Source: Alphaproteobacteria bacterium (GTDB taxonomy: Bacteria > Pseudomonadota > Alphaproteobacteria > Micropepsales > Micropepsaceae). Taken from it: a stretch of DNA of 32,869 bases. Positions within the stretch are counted from its first letter, which is position 1. Every line of letters starts with the position of its first letter. The stretch covers positions 1 through 32,869 of the forward strand of contig JAPUEF010000350.1 of NCBI GenBank assembly GCA_027492655.1, in the 5' to 3' direction. The notes beneath the pieces were generated by a model. The model searched no databases. It was not told where the DNA came from and worked only from the letters and a program-made list of their open reading frames with translations. Positions 21,809-32,869 of this stretch are shown piece after piece. A program made the translations under genes and the position numbers.

Positions 21809-23419
21809 CTACATGCCGCCCGAGTGCCCCTGTGGTGGAATGGTAGACGCGGCGGATTCAAAATCCGTTGCCGCAAGGCGTGCTGGTTCGAGTCCGGCCA
21901 GGGGCACCACTTTGTTTTTCACGGTCTCTGCACCGAAAAGTCTAAACGGCAGACTGACTTGCGCGGTTCGATACCCTTCACCACGCGCATATTCTAATTG
22001 CCCCTGAAACGTGAGTGATATGACTGTCTGACGATCGATCAAACGGTCGGAAATCCAGAGATTCCACGGATTTTTTAAGAAGCCTAAGGCGGTTCGAGCA
22101 ACGTCCTGATAGCTGCTTGCTGGACTGCTTGAATCGGTGATCCGCTCGCGCATCACAGCCTTCTCGCCTTCCAGTTTTTCGATGCGGCTTTCGAACGCAG
22201 CGATGACGGACGGTGTGCTTGCACTCACAACGCGATCGAGCAGCTTGTCGGTCTCGTTTTCGATTTCGACCAGCTTTCTTTTCAGCGCGGCCACCCGCGC
22301 ATCTTCATGCGCAGAGCGCTTCGCCCAGATGTTTCCGAGCATGCGCTCCGCAACACCGAGTAAGCGCGGCGTTGGTTGAACTGATTTCAGCAGGTGTTCG
22401 AACTCGCCCTCAATCTGCTCCTTCTTGATCGACTTCCCGTAGGACGGGCATGATGCCTTTTGGCACACGTAATAGGCGTAAGACTTCGAACGCCCTTTAG
22501 ACCAACATGCCGTAAGCCGGTTTCCACATGTGCAGGTCACAAACCCACGCAGTGGAAAGTCATCGTTGAGGTTCTTGCGCATTGGCACACGATTGACGCC
22601 GTGCAAACGATCTTGAATTCGCTGCCACGTTTCGGCGCTGATGATCGGCGGATGGACGCCGCGTTGCATGTTGATGCCCCAATCAGGTTTGTGAATGAAG
22701 CCTGCATAAAATGGATTGTTCAAAAGCTCTTCGATATGGCTTGGCCGAACGATGCCAGTCTTGCTGCGCGGGAATAGTGGCTGATCTTGCAGCCAGTTTT
22801 TTACATCGACCTGACGATCAAAGCGGCCACTGGCATAACCTTCGAGCGCCTCCTTCACGACGAGCGCCACGTCTTGTTTGATGCGGACGACCTTGCCGCG
22901 ATAGCGCTCAGCCTCATAGAAGTAGCCGGGCGGGGTGTGAAAACACCAATAGCCATTGAGCATACGCCCGAGCATCCGGCTCTTGGTTGTCTCGACAATT
23001 TTGCGCCGTGTGTGTGCGCCAAAATTGACCAGAAGACGCTCGACGAAAATTTCGTCGGCACTGTTTCCGATCTTGATGGTCGTGGCTTCGAGGCTATTAC
23101 CGGACGCAAAGATGGCATCGCGGAGCGGCCAATAGACATCTTCATCGCGCCCGAGGCGGCTCAGATCGTCGATGATGACGACGATCCCCTTGCCACGATT
23201 TTTCTTCAAGAAGGCGAACAGCAGATGAAGTTCTGCGCGATTGCTCGTGCTGCCTGTGACATCGTCATGGAATGCACGCAGCACATGGTAGTTTCGGCGA
23301 GCGGCATACTCACGGCAGATGCGTTCTTGTGAATCGAGACCGTTCCCCTCACTTTTTTGCTTAGGGTCGGAAACGCGGCAGTAAATCACTGCCTCTTTGA
23401 TCGTCTCTTCGATACTCAC
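21809..23419 (-). CDS. Large serine recombinase (site-specific integrase)
   Basis: 536 aa. The N-terminal resolvase domain has the nucleophile Ser17 in VIYCRVSDPKQ and the arginine-rich active-site stretch IDDLSRLGRDEDVY. A recombinase domain follows (HTPPGYFYEAERYRG to LLNNPFYAGFIH), then a zinc ribbon (FVTCTCGNRL with VCQKASCPSYGK), a coiled coil (about residues 375-430) and a short tail. It would catalyse integration and excision of the island. The start is a GTG at 23419 with only a weak ribosome site. The last 30 or so residues (PLAGLEPARLAATDFE onward) are encoded by the antisense strand of tRNA-Leu, so the C-terminus crosses the integration junction. It is 46 bp behind the 92-aa gene and probably cotranscribed. 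Confidence 0.9.
   Translation of the reverse strand: MSIEETIKEAVIYCRVSDPKQKSEGNGLDSQERICREYAARRNYHVLRAFHDDVTGSTSNRAELHLLFAFLKKNRGKGIVVIIDDLSRLGRDEDVYWPLRDAIFASGNSLEATTIKIGNSADEIFVERLLVNFGAHTRRKIVETTKSRMLGRMLNGYWCFHTPPGYFYEAERYRGKVVRIKQDVALVVKEALEGYASGRFDRQVDVKNWLQDQPLFPRSKTGIVRPSHIEELLNNPFYAGFIHKPDWGINMQRGVHPPIISAETWQRIQDRLHGVNRVPMRKNLNDDFPLRGFVTCTCGNRLTACWSKGRSKSYAYYVCQKASCPSYGKSIKKEQIEGEFEHLLKSVQPTPRLLGVAERMLGNIWAKRSAHEDARVAALKRKLVEIENETDKLLDRVVSASTPSVIAAFESRIEKLEGEKAVMRERITDSSSPASSYQDVARTALGFLKNPWNLWISDRLIDRQTVISLTFQGQLEYARGEGYRTAQVSLPFRLFGAETVKNKVVPLAGLEPARLAATDFESAASTIPPQGHSGGM
21826..21909 (+). tRNA. tRNA-Leu (anticodon CAA)
   Basis: The acceptor stem GCCCCTG (21826-21832) pairs fully with CAGGGGC (21899-21905), followed by discriminator A and an encoded CCA (21907-21909). 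The anticodon arm is GCGGA-TTCAAAA-TCCGT, giving anticodon CAA (reads UUG). TGGTAGACGC is the D-arm part and GGTTCGAGTCC the T arm. The long variable arm (TGCCGCAAGGCG) is typical of class II leucine tRNAs. Its 3' end abuts the island, and the recombinase frame runs across it in antisense. Confidence 0.95.
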
Positions 23420-24653: not shown

Positions 24654-24746
24654 CTAGAATATTTTTGCATATCCGGTCAGCTTCCAGACGAGCATAAACA
24701 GGAAGATGGCAACAGCGGCGAAGAGAAAGATCGTCTCTTTCTTCAT
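24654..24746 (-). CDS. 30-aa single-span membrane peptide coupled to nhaA
   Basis: ATG 24746 overlaps the nhaA stop as ATGA, and the frame runs 30 codons to TAG 24654. The peptide begins [20 protein letters not shown] and ends [10 protein letters not shown]: charged start, about 20 hydrophobic residues, then W-K, a classic one-helix membrane peptide. No homologue is recalled. Translational coupling and a clean membrane-helix composition argue that it is a real gene and possibly a small subunit or regulator of the antiporter, comparable in layout to KdpF or CydX in their operons. Confidence 0.62.
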
Positions 24747-25993
24747 AATGCTGCACGCTTCGGCTTGAGCAGCAGGATCGCGCCGACAATGGCCGAGGCA
24801 ATTGATCCAATCAGAACGCCCAATTTTGTTTCGTCTTGTAAGACGGGACTACTCTCAAACGCGAGAAGGCCGATGAATAGGCTCATGGTGAAGCCAACCC
24901 CGCACAGAACGGAAACGCCATAGAGCTGCCGCCAGCTTGCGTGTGCGGGCAGCTCCGCAAATCCCATGCGGATGACGGCGGCAGCGAAAGCGAACACACC
25001 AATTTGCTTTCCCACAAACAGGCCGAGGGCCACGCCGAGAGGTACAGGGTCGGCAAGCTGGGTGAGCGACATTCCGGAGAAGGACACGCCCGCATTGGCA
25101 AAGCCGAACACAGGCACGATCAGGAACGTCACCCACGGAGCAATGCCGTGTTCGAGGATGTGCAACGGCGAATGTGCGTCGTCTGGCTTCGCGGGGCTGG
25201 CTCGCAGCGGAATACAAAATGCGAGCGCGACGCCTGCAAGAGTGGCGTGGACGCCTGATTGTAAAACGAAGAACCAAAGTGCGCCCCCTAAAGTCAGATA
25301 GGGCCACAGGCTCATGATGCGCAGACGGTTCAAGGCGATGAGTGCAACCAGCACAATTGCGGCCGCGCCAAGCGCGAGGGCATTGAGCGAGGCGGTGTAG
25401 AAAAGCGCGATGATGATCACCGCGCCCAGATCATCGATAATCGCAAGCGCGGTCAGAAAGACGCGCAGCGTCATCGGGACGCGCGGCCCCAGCAGCGACA
25501 TGACGCCAAGCGCGAAGGCAATGTCTGTGGCGGCCGGAATCGCCCAGCCTTTAGGCTGGCCGCCCTCGCCCATGTTGAATGCGAGGAATACGAAAGCGGG
25601 AACCGCCATTCCACCGAGCGCGGCAAAGCCGGGCAAAATCCGGCGAGGCCATGTTGAGAGCTGGCCGTCTAAAACCTCGCGTTTGATTTCGAGGCCGACC
25701 ATCAGGAAGAACACGGCCATCAAGCCGTCGTTGATCCAATGCAGGATCGACAGGCCGCCGACATAGAGATGCAGGCTCTCAAAATACGCCGCGCTGATGG
25801 GGGAATTCGCAATGACGAGCGCGAGCGCTGCGGCGACCATGAGGACAATTCCGCCCGAGGCAGAGTTGTCCAAGAAAGCGCGGATCAGAGAAACAGGGCG
25901 TTGCTGGTTCGGCTGCACAGGGATGACCCGCCTTCCAAAAAAGGTTTCGACATCTCCGTGGATTTTGGGGTGCACCCAAGGCGCACGCAGCAC
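24743..25993 (-). CDS. nhaA: Na+/H+ antiporter NhaA
   Basis: Exchanges cytoplasmic Na+ (or Li+) for protons across the inner membrane. From GTG 25993 the protein is 416 aa; E. coli NhaA is 388. The ion-binding aspartate pair is in [21 protein letters not shown] and the helix IV aspartate in [38 protein letters not shown] marks the first membrane segment and [14 protein letters not shown] a late one. The first 25 residues (to GRRVIP) are not NhaA-like; an internal GTG at 25918 would give a more normal start and make the upstream part an untranslated leader. A 30-aa membrane peptide is coupled downstream. It is carried on the island, so it may add salt or pH tolerance. Confidence 0.92.
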
Positions 25994-26457: not shown

Positions 26458-27642
26458 TTAAGTGCTGGAAGTTTTTTTCAAGGACGCCGACGCAGGATCG
26501 TATGCGTATCCCGTAATCGATCCGTCCTTGATCCGCTCGACGGCTTCATCGATCGCCTGGAGCGGCACCAAAAACCATTCGCGCGGTTTCACAGGCTGGC
26601 CGAACCGGTCGGGGATGGTGAGATCAAGCTGCACCGCCCCGAACAGCCTGTGAAATATCTTCTCAAGGCGCGTCCGGTTGATGTTGAAGAGCTTGTAAGT
26701 CGCGACAACCTCAACATCCGACAGAAGATATGTCGCATCATGCGCCGCATTCGCGATCCGCGCCTCCACCGCGCCGCCCGTCACCCCGATCTTGTGGATG
26801 ATGCTCCGGTGCTCGGCAACAGTGGGGTGCTGCGAATGACTTCGCAGAACGTAGATCGTCCCGCTCGCCAGATCGTCGGCTTCTTGCGCGCCGCCAAAGA
26901 GCGGCCCCGCCGATGGGTCCGTGATGCGCCGTCCCGCCTCGTCCTTATGAAGCGATCGCTGGAGCGAGCGCATCAGCAAGTTGCTCTCGGTTCCATTCGA
27001 AAACACCACGCGCAGGCGTGCATCGGTTCGCCCTTGCGCATTCGAATACACCTCACCCATCTCGGCGACGTAAGCCGTCTGACCGCCGACAATGAACCAG
27101 CTTCCAGGACGGATTTCGGCTTTGAGTTCGAACGGGCGGGTTTGCCGCACGCCGGTATCGATCTCGCGTTGCACCTGATCGAAGAGCGGCTTGAACCGCG
27201 CAAAATCAGGGCATGGCGTGCGGTTGGCGATCTCTTCGGCGGCGCGGCGTTCCTCGCGGCTGGAGACGTGCTTTAGAACCGTGATGTCGGTTTCCGTGAC
27301 ATCGTCAACACCAAGCTCTGCGAGCAATGCGTCGTCTTCTAGTTCCTCGCCCTCGCTTGCAGGAGATGCGCCGGTCAGAAGGCCGTGCACGTCCAGCTCG
27401 GCGAGCAGAGTTTGCGCCTCGGGAAGCTTGCGGATTTGATCGAGCCGCACGGCATAGAGCCGTTCGAAGATATCCCGTCCCTCGCCATGGAGCGGCGCGC
27501 GGCCATGCTCTTCGTGAAAGCGAAGAATATCTTCGAAGCCCGCAATGATCCGCTCTTCGCGCGGCGTGTGAGAGCGTGCCTTTTGCGGCTCGATCGTCGC
27601 GCCGAGTTCGGCCAGCAATTCGTCGTCTGTTAAATCAACCAT
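26458..27642 (-). CDS. GIY-YIG nuclease-family protein of the methyltransferase-helicase operon
   Basis: 394 aa from ATG 27642, overlapping the helicase stop by 8 bp. The C-terminal GIY-YIG domain (about residues 257-370, T5orf172/MUG113-like) shows GTIYVLRS as GIY and HKIGVTGG as YIG, then VEARIANA with the conserved Arg and RTRLEKIFHRLF with the metal-binding Glu; PREWFLVPL follows. The N-terminal half has a short repeated D-D-x-L-L-A-E-L-G element (residues 6-14 and 103-111, plus a degenerate copy at 76-83) and an HGRAP block (46-50). It is probably the nuclease or a DNA-nicking partner of the operon; whether catalysis is intact cannot be judged by eye alone. Confidence 0.82.
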   Translation of the reverse strand: MVDLTDDELLAELGATIEPQKARSHTPREERIIAGFEDILRFHEEHGRAPLHGEGRDIFERLYAVRLDQIRKLPEAQTLLAELDVHGLLTGASPASEGEELEDDALLAELGVDDVTETDITVLKHVSSREERRAAEEIANRTPCPDFARFKPLFDQVQREIDTGVRQTRPFELKAEIRPGSWFIVGGQTAYVAEMGEVYSNAQGRTDARLRVVFSNGTESNLLMRSLQRSLHKDEAGRRITDPSAGPLFGGAQEADDLASGTIYVLRSHSQHPTVAEHRSIIHKIGVTGGAVEARIANAAHDATYLLSDVEVVATYKLFNINRTRLEKIFHRLFGAVQLDLTIPDRFGQPVKPREWFLVPLQAIDEAVERIKDGSITGYAYDPASASLKKTSST

Positions 27643-29722
27643 TGGCGGTCTTCGCTGCGCGGTAACGCGCAAGTGCCGCCACGCCTTCGGCCAGTTTCTT
27701 CTCCCAGGCATCTTGGGAGGTGATGTCCGGCGCACGGCCACGCTCTTGCTTGAAACGAAGAGCCCGAACGGCAAGCTCGCGCGCTTCCTCGTAAGGAATG
27801 CTCACACGCTTGGCCGCGATCGCCGCCTGCACCTGGCGCAGGGTCTTTTCATCCATGGCCTTGCCGAGGACGGCATAGGCCGCATCGAACGGATTGATCT
27901 TGTCGATCATGTCGATATCCAGATCGCGCACATCCATGGCGATCTGGCGCACCCCATCCAGCAAAGCCGTGTTACCGCGCTGATCTCCGGTGCCGGTATC
28001 GATGCCGCTCGCAAGTTCCTTGGCGCGCTGGGTGAGGTTCAATGCCGCGATCGCATGCTGCCGGATCGCTTCCTGATCCGTTTCGCTCAAATCGGGATAA
28101 CGCTCGCGCACAATCTTGCCCATGCGCGCCTGCGTTAGCTCTTCGGGCAGAGTATTTTCACGATCAAAGAGACCGCGCTCCAGTGCCGTTTTATCTTGCA
28201 CGAACGCCGTGATGACCTCGTTCAAATCCTCTTTGCAGATGCGGGTCGCTTCCGGCGTCTCCGGCGTCACCAGCCCCTTGATCTCAAAATGGAATTGGCC
28301 GGTCTCTTCGTTGAAGCCGACATTTGTCTTGCCTTCTTCGTAGCCCTTCTCGCCGTAATCGAAGCCTGGCTTCGCGCCGGAATCTTTGGGTGTAAATTCA
28401 AAGCGCGGCGCAAGCACCTGCTCCATGAGAAGGCTGGCAGCGATCGCTTTGAGCGTATCGTTGATCGCATCGACCACCAGAGCTTCCGCCGCATCCGGCT
28501 CTGCAATCAAATTGGTGAAGCGTGCCCGCTCCTTGCCTGGCGCATCGCGGGTCGCGCGGCCAATGATCTGGATGACTTCCGTCAGGCTGGAGCGATAGCC
28601 GACCGTGAGCGCGTGCTCGCACCAAATCCAGTCGAAGCCTTCTTTGGCCATGCCCAGCGCGATGATGATATCGACATGATCGCGGTTGTTCTTCTGGGAC
28701 GGGTCTTTGAGCGAGGCCGCAACCTTGTCGCGCTTGGCCGGATCATCATCAACAAGGTCTGCAACCTTGATGACGCGCCCGCCAGCGATTTCGATCATGT
28801 GGAAGCCGGTCGCGGGGTCGATGCCCTTCCAGGTGCCAAGAGATTCCATGATCTCATCGACTTCCTTGTGCTTGTCCTTGGTGCTCTCTTTCGAGTTCAC
28901 ATTCGGAATGTGCACGATCGTTTTGATCGAAGGATCGAGCACCTTCATGATCGCGTCGAGATATCGCCCCGTATAGAAGAAGTAACCGATATCGAGCGAC
29001 TTCAGATGTTCATAGCCATTCAGCTGCTCATAGTAGGTATAAGTGACGGTGACGAACTTCGCTTCGTCGGATGGTGCGAGAACTGCCTCCGCATCGCCTC
29101 TGAAGTAAGATCCCGTCATCGCGACCAGATGCACCTTGTCGCGGACGATGAACTGGCCGAGCTGCGCGCCAAGCCGGTTGTCAGGATTGCTGCTGACATG
29201 GTGGAACTCGTCCACCGCAATCAGGCGGTTGTCGAACGCCTCAACGCCCAGCTCATCGACGGCAAAGCGGAACGTCGCATGGGTGCAGACTAAAACCTCA
29301 TCGTCGCTCGCCAGAAACTCGCCGACCGCCTTGACCTTTGATTTCGCGACCTTCGGCTCGTCAATGCCAGGCGCATTGCACAGATTCCATTGCGGCTTCA
29401 CTGTCCAATCATAGGGGAAGCCGTTCGCGCTCAGCTTTTCATCGGCAAAGCTGCCGCCGATCGAACGCTCCGGCACGACGATGATCGCTTGTTTGATGCC
29501 CTGATTGCGCAGCTTATCCAGCGCGATGAACATCAAAGCGCGGGACTTGCCTGATGCCGGTGGCGATTTGATGAGCAGATATTGCTCGCCGCGCCGCGCA
29601 TAGGCCCGCTCTTGCATCACTCGCATGCCCATGGCGTTTGCCTTGGTCGATGCGCCGGTGCGTGCTGTCGTGATGGACACGGACGGGATCGTCCGCTCGT
29701 TCGTCGGATTGTCGGTCGTCAT
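27635..29722 (-). CDS. SF2 DEAD/DEAH-type helicase of the methyltransferase operon
   Basis: 695 aa. The Walker A motif is SPPASGKS (residues 53-60), motif II is D-E-F-H at 171-174 (LIAVDEFHHVSS), motif III is MTGSY near 207, and motif VI is QIIGRATRD near 385. This architecture matches helicases of type I/III restriction systems, but no PD-(D/E)xK endonuclease block is visible at the C-terminus. The C-terminus instead ends in ALRFKQERGRAPDITSQDAWEKKLAEG, resembling a stretch in the downstream GIY-YIG protein. ATG 29722 overlaps the original methyltransferase stop (ATGA), and its own stop overlaps the GIY-YIG start. It probably translocates on or unwinds DNA for the system. Confidence 0.88.
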   Translation of the reverse strand: MTTDNPTNERTIPSVSITTARTGASTKANAMGMRVMQERAYARRGEQYLLIKSPPASGKSRALMFIALDKLRNQGIKQAIIVVPERSIGGSFADEKLSANGFPYDWTVKPQWNLCNAPGIDEPKVAKSKVKAVGEFLASDDEVLVCTHATFRFAVDELGVEAFDNRLIAVDEFHHVSSNPDNRLGAQLGQFIVRDKVHLVAMTGSYFRGDAEAVLAPSDEAKFVTVTYTYYEQLNGYEHLKSLDIGYFFYTGRYLDAIMKVLDPSIKTIVHIPNVNSKESTKDKHKEVDEIMESLGTWKGIDPATGFHMIEIAGGRVIKVADLVDDDPAKRDKVAASLKDPSQKNNRDHVDIIIALGMAKEGFDWIWCEHALTVGYRSSLTEVIQIIGRATRDAPGKERARFTNLIAEPDAAEALVVDAINDTLKAIAASLLMEQVLAPRFEFTPKDSGAKPGFDYGEKGYEEGKTNVGFNEETGQFHFEIKGLVTPETPEATRICKEDLNEVITAFVQDKTALERGLFDRENTLPEELTQARMGKIVRERYPDLSETDQEAIRQHAIAALNLTQRAKELASGIDTGTGDQRGNTALLDGVRQIAMDVRDLDIDMIDKINPFDAAYAVLGKAMDEKTLRQVQAAIAAKRVSIPYEEARELAVRALRFKQERGRAPDITSQDAWEKKLAEGVAALARYRAAKTANG

Positions 29723-29967
29723 GCGGCCTTCCTCCCTTTCTTTTTTGTGGGTTTGGGCTGATTGGCCGTCATCTTGGTGTAGAGATCGAAGAGCTTCTCC
29801 AGCCGTTCAGTGTCGTTCCTGAATCGCCGCCCGATGTAGATGCGCTCCAGCACCTCGTCGTTTTCGTCATGCGCGCGGCGCAGATCGTCCGGCATCTCTT
29901 CGGGGTAGTATAGATCGGCGATCGTCTTCGGGAAAATCGCCACGAGACCGAGCAAGAAATTGACATC
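29719..29967 (-). pseudogene. Detached C-terminal 82 codons of the methyltransferase
   Basis: In the same frame as the methyltransferase and directly after its TGA stop, 82 codons stay open to the TGA at 29719. The translation, DVNFLLGLVAIFPKTIADLYYP followed by DLRRAHDENDEVLERIYIGRRF and NDTERLEKLFDLYTKMTA, is the recognisable C-terminal end of MmeI-like methyltransferases (I-A-D-L-Y, A-H-x-x-N-D-E-V-L-E, F-x-N-D-T-E-R-L-E-x-L-F-x-L-Y). The natural stop overlaps the helicase start. Without readthrough or reinitiation it would not be made. Confidence 0.8.
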
Positions 29968-32523
29968 TCACCGCGGGAGATCCGCATTGGAATGGTCGGT
30001 GAGCTTGGGAAGAGGAAATGTGTTCCATCCGAGGGTGTTGGAATACCGGTACCGCGTCTCCAACCTGCCGCACACCGCCGCAATCCAAGCAAGATGGATT
30101 TTCGATCCGATGATAGACAGTGTCCACAGGGGCGCATCGTATAAAGCGAATGCTGAGTTGCTGACTATCGACCTCGGCGGTAGTAGACCGACAGGAAGAT
30201 AGCCCCTTCGTTCCGAACTAACGGCTGGAACAATTAGACTCCAACGCGTTCCAACGCCCTGGATCTGTCTGAACTTGTGAGGGTAACGAGCGGACGGACG
30301 GGTTTCAGCAGCTTTGCTTTCACTACGGAAAGCTGCAACGCGTTCGAAGCGCAGTCGCAGAGCTTCATGGCTTCGCGCGAGTTCTACATCCTCGTCCTCG
30401 ACCCAGATGCAATGTCGCTCCAAACCCTTGATGTACTCGGCTCCACCAAAATAGGGCCGCATGAACCTACGAGAACTTGGATCAGCTCTCAGGACTTCAT
30501 CCCGCTCGTGGCGAGTTAGAAGCAATCCACCACCATCGGTAGGTTTGTTCCCCCACAGCATTGCAGCTCGGCCATCTGGGGCTTGTGACGCAGTCGTGAC
30601 TATTACGTCAGTCGTTGGTGATAGGTACGCGTTAATTTCAGATACGGTTTTCTCTTGGAAAACCCCATCCTTGTCCTCGTAGAAAAGCTTGCGTCGTCGC
30701 GTGTGGTCATTACTGATCGCTACGATCGCAACGGTAACGCCAGCGTTGTGGCTCGCTAAGTTGGCCCACTTAAACGAGACGTGTGCAAATGTGATTTGAA
30801 AGCCGCTGCTAGCGATCAGCGGCCAAAGTATCGGCACTTGCTCGCCCTGACAGACCGAATTGGTGGTGACAAAGGCTGCAGTTACCTTTGAGCTTCGCCC
30901 AAAATCTGCAGCCTTCATGAACCACGCGCTGACGTAGTCCAGAGACTTCCACGCTTTTGTGCGTGTATCAAAAATGGAGGCCAGTTCTGCTTTTTGCTCT
31001 TGGGATTGCCACGTAAACCCGAGATACGGGGGGTTCCCGCAGATGTAGGTTTCGCCTCCCTCATTCTCGAAATCGATCTGCGCTTGATCGAGTGGCGAGT
31101 TGAAGAGATCGTCCGCGTGTAATTTCACGCCGGTGCCAGTAGGAGGACAAACCGATAGCCAATCGAGACCGAGCGCGTTGCCGCAGGTAATCCAGTTATC
31201 CGCATTGAGTGGTAAGAACTCGGCTAGTGCTTCTTTCTGTCCCCGATACAGAACGTCGCATTGATACTCTGCGATGATCAAAGCAAGCCTCGCGATTTCC
31301 GCAGGAAAATTGCGAAGCTCAATTCCCCGAAAACTCGTGAGCGGTATGTCAGATCGACGCTCTGACTCATCTCGCCGTTTGTTGATCTCAGCTTCGATGG
31401 CCCGCATTTCTTTGTAGGCGATGACGAGGAAGTTGCCCGAACCGCAGGCCGGATCGAACACACGTATTTTCGACATGCGCTTGCGGAGATTCAGCAGCGC
31501 ACGTCCGTTGTCGCCAGCTGCTTCCAGCTGTTCTCGTAGATCGTCGAGGAAGAGTGGATTTAGAACTTTCAGGATGTTCGGCACGCTCGTGTAGTGCATG
31601 CCGAGCGATCCACGCTCTTCGTCTTCGGCGACGGCCTGGATCATCGATCCGAAAATGTCGGGGTTGATCTGCTGCCAGTCGAGCTCGCCAGCGCGCAATA
31701 GGTATGAGCGCGCCATGCGGCTGAACTTCGGGCAATCGATCTCGCCTGAGAACAGGTGGCCGTTCACGTAAGGAAACTTGTCCGCCCAGCCCTTGATGTT
31801 CGCCGCTTTGCGGTAGCGATCATCCGGCGTGCCGTTGTGTGTGGTCGGCGTGTCCATCGCGCGGAACAGCTCTGACAGCACTTCGTGCGTGTTGCCTGAT
31901 TGGCCATCGCTCATTGTCTCGATGGTGCGGGTGAAGATGTTGTTCTGAAATATCCCCGTATCTTCGGCGAAGAAGCAGAAGATCAGCCGCGCCATGAAGT
32001 GGTTGAGCATGGGCCTCTTCTCGGCAGATGCCCAATCGGGATTGTCCTTGAGAAGCTCGACATAGAGTTTGTTCAGGCGTCCCGTCGCCTTCACGTCGAT
32101 CGGGTTGTTCTTGATCTCCTTGACCGTGGTGATGCCAGCCAGCGGCAGGAAGAACCCGAAATGCTCCGCAAATTTCTCGAACGGGGTTGAGAGCGGCTCG
32201 CCGCTGATCAGGTCTTCGGCTTCAAGTGTTTTGCCATCCGTCGCCAGGATGAATTTCGCCTTGGCGGCGGTCGTCTTCGGGCTTTGGCGCAGAGCGGCGA
32301 GCGTCTCGTTGACCTTGCCTTCATCGCAGGTGGCGATGTGAATGTTGTTTCGCTGAAGAACGCCTTCTGCGATGTCCGACGAATTCGACGCGCCCGAGCG
32401 CAGCTTCCTGATCGTCGTGTCCTTGTTGTCGAACGCTTTCAAAAAGGCATAAGGGAACTCGGCGCGGTCAAATTCCTGCGCCGCCAGTTCCGATGCTGCT
32501 TCCTCGATTTCAACTGCGTTCAT
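29968..32523 (-). CDS. MmeI-like class I SAM-dependent DNA methyltransferase, cut short by in-frame TGA
   Basis: 851 aa as read; restoring the frame past the TGA gives about 934, the usual size for this family. It methylates adenine in DNA using S-adenosylmethionine. Motif I is VFDPACGSGNFLVIAY (about residue 355) and the catalytic N-P-P-Y is in YICGNPPYLGF (about residue 497). The helical spacer stretch LIFCFFAEDTGIF, then FGSMIQAVAEDEERGSLGMHYTS and ILKVLNPLFLDDL, are family markers; the target-recognition domain follows from about residue 650. The N-terminus (GASNSSDIAEGVLQRNNIHI) occupies the place of the MmeI nuclease, but no convincing D-x(n)-E-x-K set is visible. ATG 32523 heads the operon. 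Confidence 0.88.
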   Translation of the reverse strand: MNAVEIEEAASELAAQEFDRAEFPYAFLKAFDNKDTTIRKLRSGASNSSDIAEGVLQRNNIHIATCDEGKVNETLAALRQSPKTTAAKAKFILATDGKTLEAEDLISGEPLSTPFEKFAEHFGFFLPLAGITTVKEIKNNPIDVKATGRLNKLYVELLKDNPDWASAEKRPMLNHFMARLIFCFFAEDTGIFQNNIFTRTIETMSDGQSGNTHEVLSELFRAMDTPTTHNGTPDDRYRKAANIKGWADKFPYVNGHLFSGEIDCPKFSRMARSYLLRAGELDWQQINPDIFGSMIQAVAEDEERGSLGMHYTSVPNILKVLNPLFLDDLREQLEAAGDNGRALLNLRKRMSKIRVFDPACGSGNFLVIAYKEMRAIEAEINKRRDESERRSDIPLTSFRGIELRNFPAEIARLALIIAEYQCDVLYRGQKEALAEFLPLNADNWITCGNALGLDWLSVCPPTGTGVKLHADDLFNSPLDQAQIDFENEGGETYICGNPPYLGFTWQSQEQKAELASIFDTRTKAWKSLDYVSAWFMKAADFGRSSKVTAAFVTTNSVCQGEQVPILWPLIASSGFQITFAHVSFKWANLASHNAGVTVAIVAISNDHTRRRKLFYEDKDGVFQEKTVSEINAYLSPTTDVIVTTASQAPDGRAAMLWGNKPTDGGGLLLTRHERDEVLRADPSSRRFMRPYFGGAEYIKGLERHCIWVEDEDVELARSHEALRLRFERVAAFRSESKAAETRPSARYPHKFRQIQGVGTRWSLIVPAVSSERRGYLPVGLLPPRSIVSNSAFALYDAPLWTLSIIGSKIHLAWIAAVCGRLETRYRYSNTLGWNTFPLPKLTDHSNADLPR

Positions 32524-32597
32524 TGCTTTTGTTCTTTGCGGTTTTCCTAGCGTCCCATTCTTCCAAGATTGGCGGCTCGGGCCACCCCTAAAACGCC

Positions 32598-32625
32598 GAT
32601 TGTCTGGCTCTATCCCCAGACAATC
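32598..32625 (-). terminator. Hairpin between the Fic gene and the methyltransferase
   Basis: GATTGTCTGG (32598-32607) and CCAGACAATC (32616-32625) are perfect 10-bp arms with an 8-nt loop. On the minus strand a short T run (GTTTTAG) follows. It may terminate the Fic transcript, or be an operator for the operon that follows. Confidence 0.55.
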
Positions 32626-32631
32626 ACGGGC

Positions 32632-32869
32632 CTACTCGTCTTCGCGTTTGTCAGGGAACAGCCCTGGCATCCAACGGCTGGCCAGCGTCGCCGGAAACGC
32701 CAGATGGATGGGGGCCTTGGTGGTCGCCGACTTGATCACGCCATGCTTGAAGAGAACTTCCGTGACGCGCCGCGCCTGACGATCGCCGGTGCCGACGATT
32801 TCGGCCAGCTCGCCACGGGGAAGCTCGCCGCGATATTGCAGAGCTTCGAGCACGTCCCTCGCCTTGGCC
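32632..32869 (-). CDS. Fic-family protein, C-terminal end only
   Basis: The last 78 codons of a gene running in from the right edge. The visible part is a winged-helix domain: VLEALQYRGELPRGELAEIVGTGDRQARRVTEVLFKHGVI, then SATTKAPIHLAFPATLASRWMPGLFPDK. This ending is typical of long Fic/DOC proteins that carry a C-terminal helix-turn-helix after an AMP-transferase core; the core itself is outside the window. Fic genes are often neighbours of restriction-modification loci. A hairpin separates it from the methyltransferase. Confidence 0.75.
   Translation of the reverse strand, partial: AKARDVLEALQYRGELPRGELAEIVGTGDRQARRVTEVLFKHGVIKSATTKAPIHLAFPATLASRWMPGLFPDKREDE

Follow-up and report, generated by a model that had tools for sequence, protein, structure and literature searches.

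The DNA methyltransferase DnmA (YeeA) of Bacillus subtilis makes N6-methyladenine (m6A) at GACGAG (PMC7261158). According to Morgan 2009, as summarized in PMC7261158, DnmA belongs to a set of MmeI homologues that lack an endonuclease motif and are flanked by yeeB and yeeC, and a Type I-like restriction-modification (RM) role was suggested for this set. Across bacteria, the genes next to those of DnmA homologues encode YeeB, a superfamily 2 (SF2) helicase, at position +1 and YeeC, a T5orf172/GIY-YIG protein, at position +2 (PMC9973331), and the same article quotes Makarova 2011 as listing both as putative antiphage genes. Between them, the two articles trace the first notice of the cluster to these earlier studies. 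Here we describe a set of the same three genes on a mobile island of an alphaproteobacterium of the family Micropepsaceae (assembly GCA_027492655.1, contig JAPUEF010000350.1). The stretch of DNA that we analyzed, referred to as the window, is 32,869 nt long and begins at base 1 of this contig (C350 in our numbering).

The locus encodes an MmeI-like methyltransferase without the nuclease motif, a helicase at +1 and a T5orf172/GIY-YIG protein at +2, in the order of the B. subtilis trio and likewise in a mobile-element context; the likeness is one of families, gene order and motif loss, not of directly aligned proteins. It differs from the B. subtilis set in its host, in its serine-recombinase island and in an interrupted methyltransferase gene. 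We assign it, with a probability of roughly 0.78, to the DnmA(YeeA)-YeeB-YeeC family as a Type I/III-like RM cluster that would work as outlined below; it is a new member of this known, still unproven RM-like family, with a methyltransferase that is probably broken. The original prediction, made from the letters of the window, had presented the trio as a little-described system. This part fails, since the trio is published and has been considered a possible Type I-like RM system, and a categorically new system was rejected on the same literature. Its guess of a split type I/III-like system agrees with the literature and with our comparison. A catalogued trio had been named as grounds for giving up the idea, and this largely applies, although we found no numbered restriction type for the trio and neither the helicase nor the GIY-YIG protein has a real model in PADLOC. 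The candidate is thus struck off as a new system and tied to a published, mechanistically unproven one, to which our analysis adds two modest points: natural breaks in the methyltransferase and a slot for exchangeable cargo genes.

Components of the trio

All three genes lie tightly packed on the minus strand between positions 26458 and 32523. The methyltransferase gene (29968 to 32523, 851 codons up to a premature stop) encodes a DnmA/YeeA-type N6-adenine enzyme with the Pfam domains MmeI_N, MmeI_hel, MmeI_Mtase and MmeI_TRD, confirming its predicted relation to type IIL enzymes, and the FDPACGSGNF and NPPY methyltransferase motifs are kept. The second gene (27635 to 29722) encodes a YeeB-type helicase of 695 aa, which is DEAD/ResIII-like, as expected for the predicted SF2 helicase, and retains the Walker, DExH and QxxGRxxR motifs; its similarity to the Pfam family ResIII is weak and below the cut-off, and Pfam matched no nuclease domain in it. 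A fold search returned SF2 folds, including EcoR124I HsdR, with low template modelling (TM) scores. The third gene (26458 to 27642) encodes a YeeC-type protein of 394 aa with a T5orf172/MUG113 domain at residues 261-371, bearing out the separate GIY-YIG family protein that had been proposed. We take T5orf172/MUG113 to be part of the GIY-YIG superfamily. The same placement is made for T5orf172 in PMC9973331, and the residues Y264, HKIG, R295 and E327 are all kept in the window protein. Residues about 165-225 resemble a small barrel of the kind found in EF-P/eIF5A domains (fold search, weak match).

The genes for the helicase and the GIY-YIG protein overlap by 8 bp (27635-27642), as had been predicted. 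The second proposed overlap, an ATGA between the methyltransferase and helicase genes, does not exist as such: the methyltransferase open reading frame ends at a TGA at 29968-29970, short of the helicase, and only its continuation to 29719 brings a stop codon into overlap with the helicase ATG. Of the internal positions that at least 95% of relatives share, the helicase departs from five, mostly by conservative changes, and the GIY-YIG protein from one. Judged from their sequences, both genes look intact.

Loss of the MmeI nuclease motif

The closest single-chain counterpart of the methyltransferase is the type IIL enzyme MmeI (PDB 5hr4); the alignment of the two (residues 90-838, 430 bits) takes in the methyltransferase, the helical spacer and the target recognition domain. 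Unlike MmeI, the window protein has no N-terminal PD-(D/E)XK nuclease, and the trio adds the helicase and GIY-YIG genes. The FID..ExK nuclease motif is absent from all 78 trio methyltransferases (the window and 77 relatives), and is kept in the 15 stand-alone homologues, in 14 of them by pattern and in the 15th by eye. These distant homologues show 31-34% identity over the matched length, and no helicase or GIY-YIG gene was found near them in the stretches read. This pattern fits the idea that the built-in nuclease was replaced by two extra genes. A stand-alone type IIL enzyme, which would unite methyltransferase and PD-(D/E)XK nuclease in a single chain, was rejected because the motif is missing. 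For the same reason the PADLOC label REase_MTase_IIG is misleading, and scanners that call the methyltransferase a stand-alone type IIG enzyme mis-describe it.

With type I and type III systems (HsdR, Mod-Res) the trio shares the combination of an SF2 motor, a nuclease and a methyltransferase, as well as cargo genes within the operon. It matches neither definition: in contrast to type I it has no separate HsdS, as target recognition lies in the methyltransferase chain, and in contrast to HsdR and to the type III Res subunit its putative nuclease is a GIY-YIG protein of its own and not part of the motor chain as a PD-(D/E)XK domain. The methyltransferase is weakly similar to PglX of BREX and DrmMI of DISARM, and neither the helicase nor the GIY-YIG protein matched the helicase or partner proteins of these two systems.

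Conservation of the trio

Among the 80 closest relatives, picked by helicase similarity (L001-L080), the methyltransferase lies upstream of the helicase in 78; in the other two, only 0.3 and 1 kb remain to the contig end. The GIY-YIG gene accompanies 76 of the 80 helicases. Three of the remaining four loci stop at or just past the helicase, so that only L038 truly lacks the gene. The exact 8-bp overlap of these two genes recurs in 64 of the 76 measurable pairs. An unselected sample of 385 genomes, spread evenly over the class, contained 18 helicase loci in 17 genomes, every one with a methyltransferase, which in 17 is nearby on the same contig and in one (G243) is on a separate contig; the GIY-YIG gene is present in 17 of the 18. 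The helicase and GIY-YIG genes thus nearly always occur together with the methyltransferase; finding them mostly without it would have told against the predicted coupling. The proposed search for the three-gene neighbourhood bears out conserved co-occurrence. The trio is common on plasmids, many of them conjugative.

Insertions within the operon are concentrated at one junction. More than 250 bp of extra sequence separate the methyltransferase and helicase genes in 38 of 78 loci; an insertion of this size between helicase and GIY-YIG gene occurs in one of 76. The cargo of the first slot comprises DUF1016/YhcG PDDEXK nucleases, AlbA/RecG-like ATPases, GmrSD, RhuM, CcdAB, Fic and PDDEXK_4 proteins. 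Comparable arrangements are known from type I loci, where PrrC is embedded in the EcoPrrI locus (PMC12707154) and DarTG lies between hsdS and hsdR in enteropathogenic Escherichia coli (EPEC; PMC12255303). The slot supports, and does not prove, a Type I-like operon; it is a bridge from this family to type I RM operons, and its varying contents suggest accessory defence genes that merit testing.

A premature stop in the methyltransferase gene

The in-frame TGA (29968-29970, minus strand) is codon 852 of the methyltransferase frame. Behind it, the conserved C-terminal end continues in the same frame for 82 more codons and an own stop codon (29719 to 29967), and is cut off by the TGA. None of 72 aligned relatives (908-958 aa) is truncated at this position; 63 of them have Cys in the stop column, 4 have Thr, 3 have Ser and 2 have Ala. 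The stop lies within a diverged patch (residues 843-864), where changes affect 12 of 18 well-conserved positions, compared to 27 of 465 in the rest of the protein (Fisher p about 2e-10), including the replacement of nearby invariant residues (R to L, E to V and A to G). The gene lacks a full-length methyltransferase frame, which marks it as a broken copy and leaves family membership untouched: the window methyltransferase is probably non-functional, or else the assembly is in error across some 20 codons.

The second option, an assembly or sequencing error in an otherwise intact gene, is a possibility that we regard as the less probable one. It is favored by the confinement of the damage to about 20 codons, beyond which only 2 of 45 well-conserved positions are mismatched, and by the draft state of the genome (355 contigs, 92% complete). 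However, the patch aligns codon for codon without insertions or deletions and keeps the frame, the genome has no second copy that could have merged in, and an independent stop exists in another genome: the trio of G092 (L122) carries a separate TAG at methyltransferase codon 564, in place of a conserved Gln codon, with the helicase and GIY-YIG frames open. A pair of frameshifts as the cause of the patch was rejected, as the indel-free in-frame reading, with codons worked out by hand, fits the relatives best; a second copy or repeat as its source was likewise rejected, none being present in the genome. The clustered changes could possibly stem from template switching. By eye, the patch at 29935-29996 holds near-palindromes (GATCTCCCGCGGTGAGATG; GGCGAT...ATCGCC).

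Recoding of the TGA, for example as selenocysteine, or production of the C-terminus as a separate protein would agree with the predominance of Cys in the stop column and with the frame that stays open as far as the helicase start. We nevertheless give it hardly any credence, since the adjacent invariant residues are altered, the Cys itself is replaced by Thr, Ser or Ala in some relatives, and such recoding is seen in no relative (recoding elements were not searched for).

A working model and its alternatives

As a member of the DnmA-YeeB-YeeC family with an intact methyltransferase, the trio would act as follows. The methyltransferase, whose own chain includes the target recognition domain, would mark a single adenine within an asymmetric site. 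Where foreign DNA lacks this mark, the enzyme would recruit the YeeB motor, and YeeC would provide the nuclease that MmeI has in its own N-terminus and presumably cut the DNA. A mark on one strand leaves one daughter unmarked after replication, and cutting would therefore be expected to need more than one unmarked site, as in type III systems, which in turn would give a role to an ATP-driven motor. Such a multi-site cutting step is inferred from known RM enzymology. Should restriction, as in type I systems, rely on an intact methyltransferase to recognize the target, the whole system is probably off in the window copy.

Several observations weigh against this model. Structure comparison of the GIY-YIG protein did not recover a GIY-YIG fold, the best matches being translation factor 5A/EF-P barrels; the structure models used were middling (mean predicted local distance difference test, pLDDT, 79.6 and 71.1). 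In B. subtilis, dnmA, yeeB and yeeC did not protect the cells from three phages (PMC9973331), and loss of dnmA left plasmid transformation unchanged (PMC7261158, PMC9973331), so that restriction is unproven for the B. subtilis copy. As to the window gene, the stop is seen in one draft contig of a genome that holds no second copy of the gene, and could stem from misassembly; the truncated methyltransferase might also still work.

For B. subtilis, PMC9973331 concludes that the system is a relic with an orphan methyltransferase. Applied here, the trio would be defunct, with a methyltransferase that was formerly kept as an orphan regulator and is now decaying too. In line with this, broken copies are not confined to the window and G092, as the trios of G016 and G123 are partly deleted. 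We consider a relic doubtful, since the helicase and GIY-YIG protein have so few deviations at their most conserved positions and the trio occurs widely on plasmids. Moreover, deletion of the dnmA and yeeB homologues of Vibrio crassostreae made this species more sensitive to some phages, as related second-hand in PMC9973331.

Breaks in the methyltransferase next to intact partners fit a nuclease that depends on the methyltransferase, and fit simple decay equally well. Such copies are natural test cases, and suggest that cutting, if there is any, is methyltransferase-dependent. It seems improbable that the helicase and GIY-YIG pair still has a role when the methyltransferase is inactive, such as methylation-independent or modification-dependent defence, with the interruptions in the window and G092 as functional states and not as decay. 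If this were true, the genes in the cargo slot could be second-line guards that fire upon inhibition, like PrrC for its type I enzyme.

The mobile island and neighboring genes

The predicted insertion of an island at a tRNA gene is borne out by a large serine recombinase gene (21809 to 23419, minus strand) whose last codons run antisense through a tRNA-Leu (CAA) gene (21826 to 21909, plus strand), so that its final residues GLEPARLAATDFESAASTIPP are encoded by the tRNA antisense strand. The island probably integrated at this tRNA gene, which would form its left end, and the G/C content drops from 0.65-0.69 on its left to 0.54-0.61 on its right. The right boundary lies beyond the window; a repeat of the tRNA 3′ end that would mark it was searched for in the genome and not found.

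Upstream of the trio, the window end cuts a Fic family gene (32632 to 32869, minus strand), whose last 78 residues match annotated Fic family proteins with at most 62% identity, in agreement with the Fic gene that had been predicted there. As a fixed fourth member of the system Fic was rejected, because there is mostly no relationship among the genes upstream of the methyltransferase: among 39 relatives there is one clear case of an upstream Fic gene, plus L003 with a fragment that is 50% identical to that of the window. The Fic gene is thus probably an accessory or unrelated neighbor. The island also carries an NhaA-type Na+/H+ antiporter gene (24743-25993) between recombinase and trio. Elsewhere in the same genome, a 1148-aa frame (G000:C247:1724-3778, L082) encodes a distant second homologue of the methyltransferase with 26% identity.

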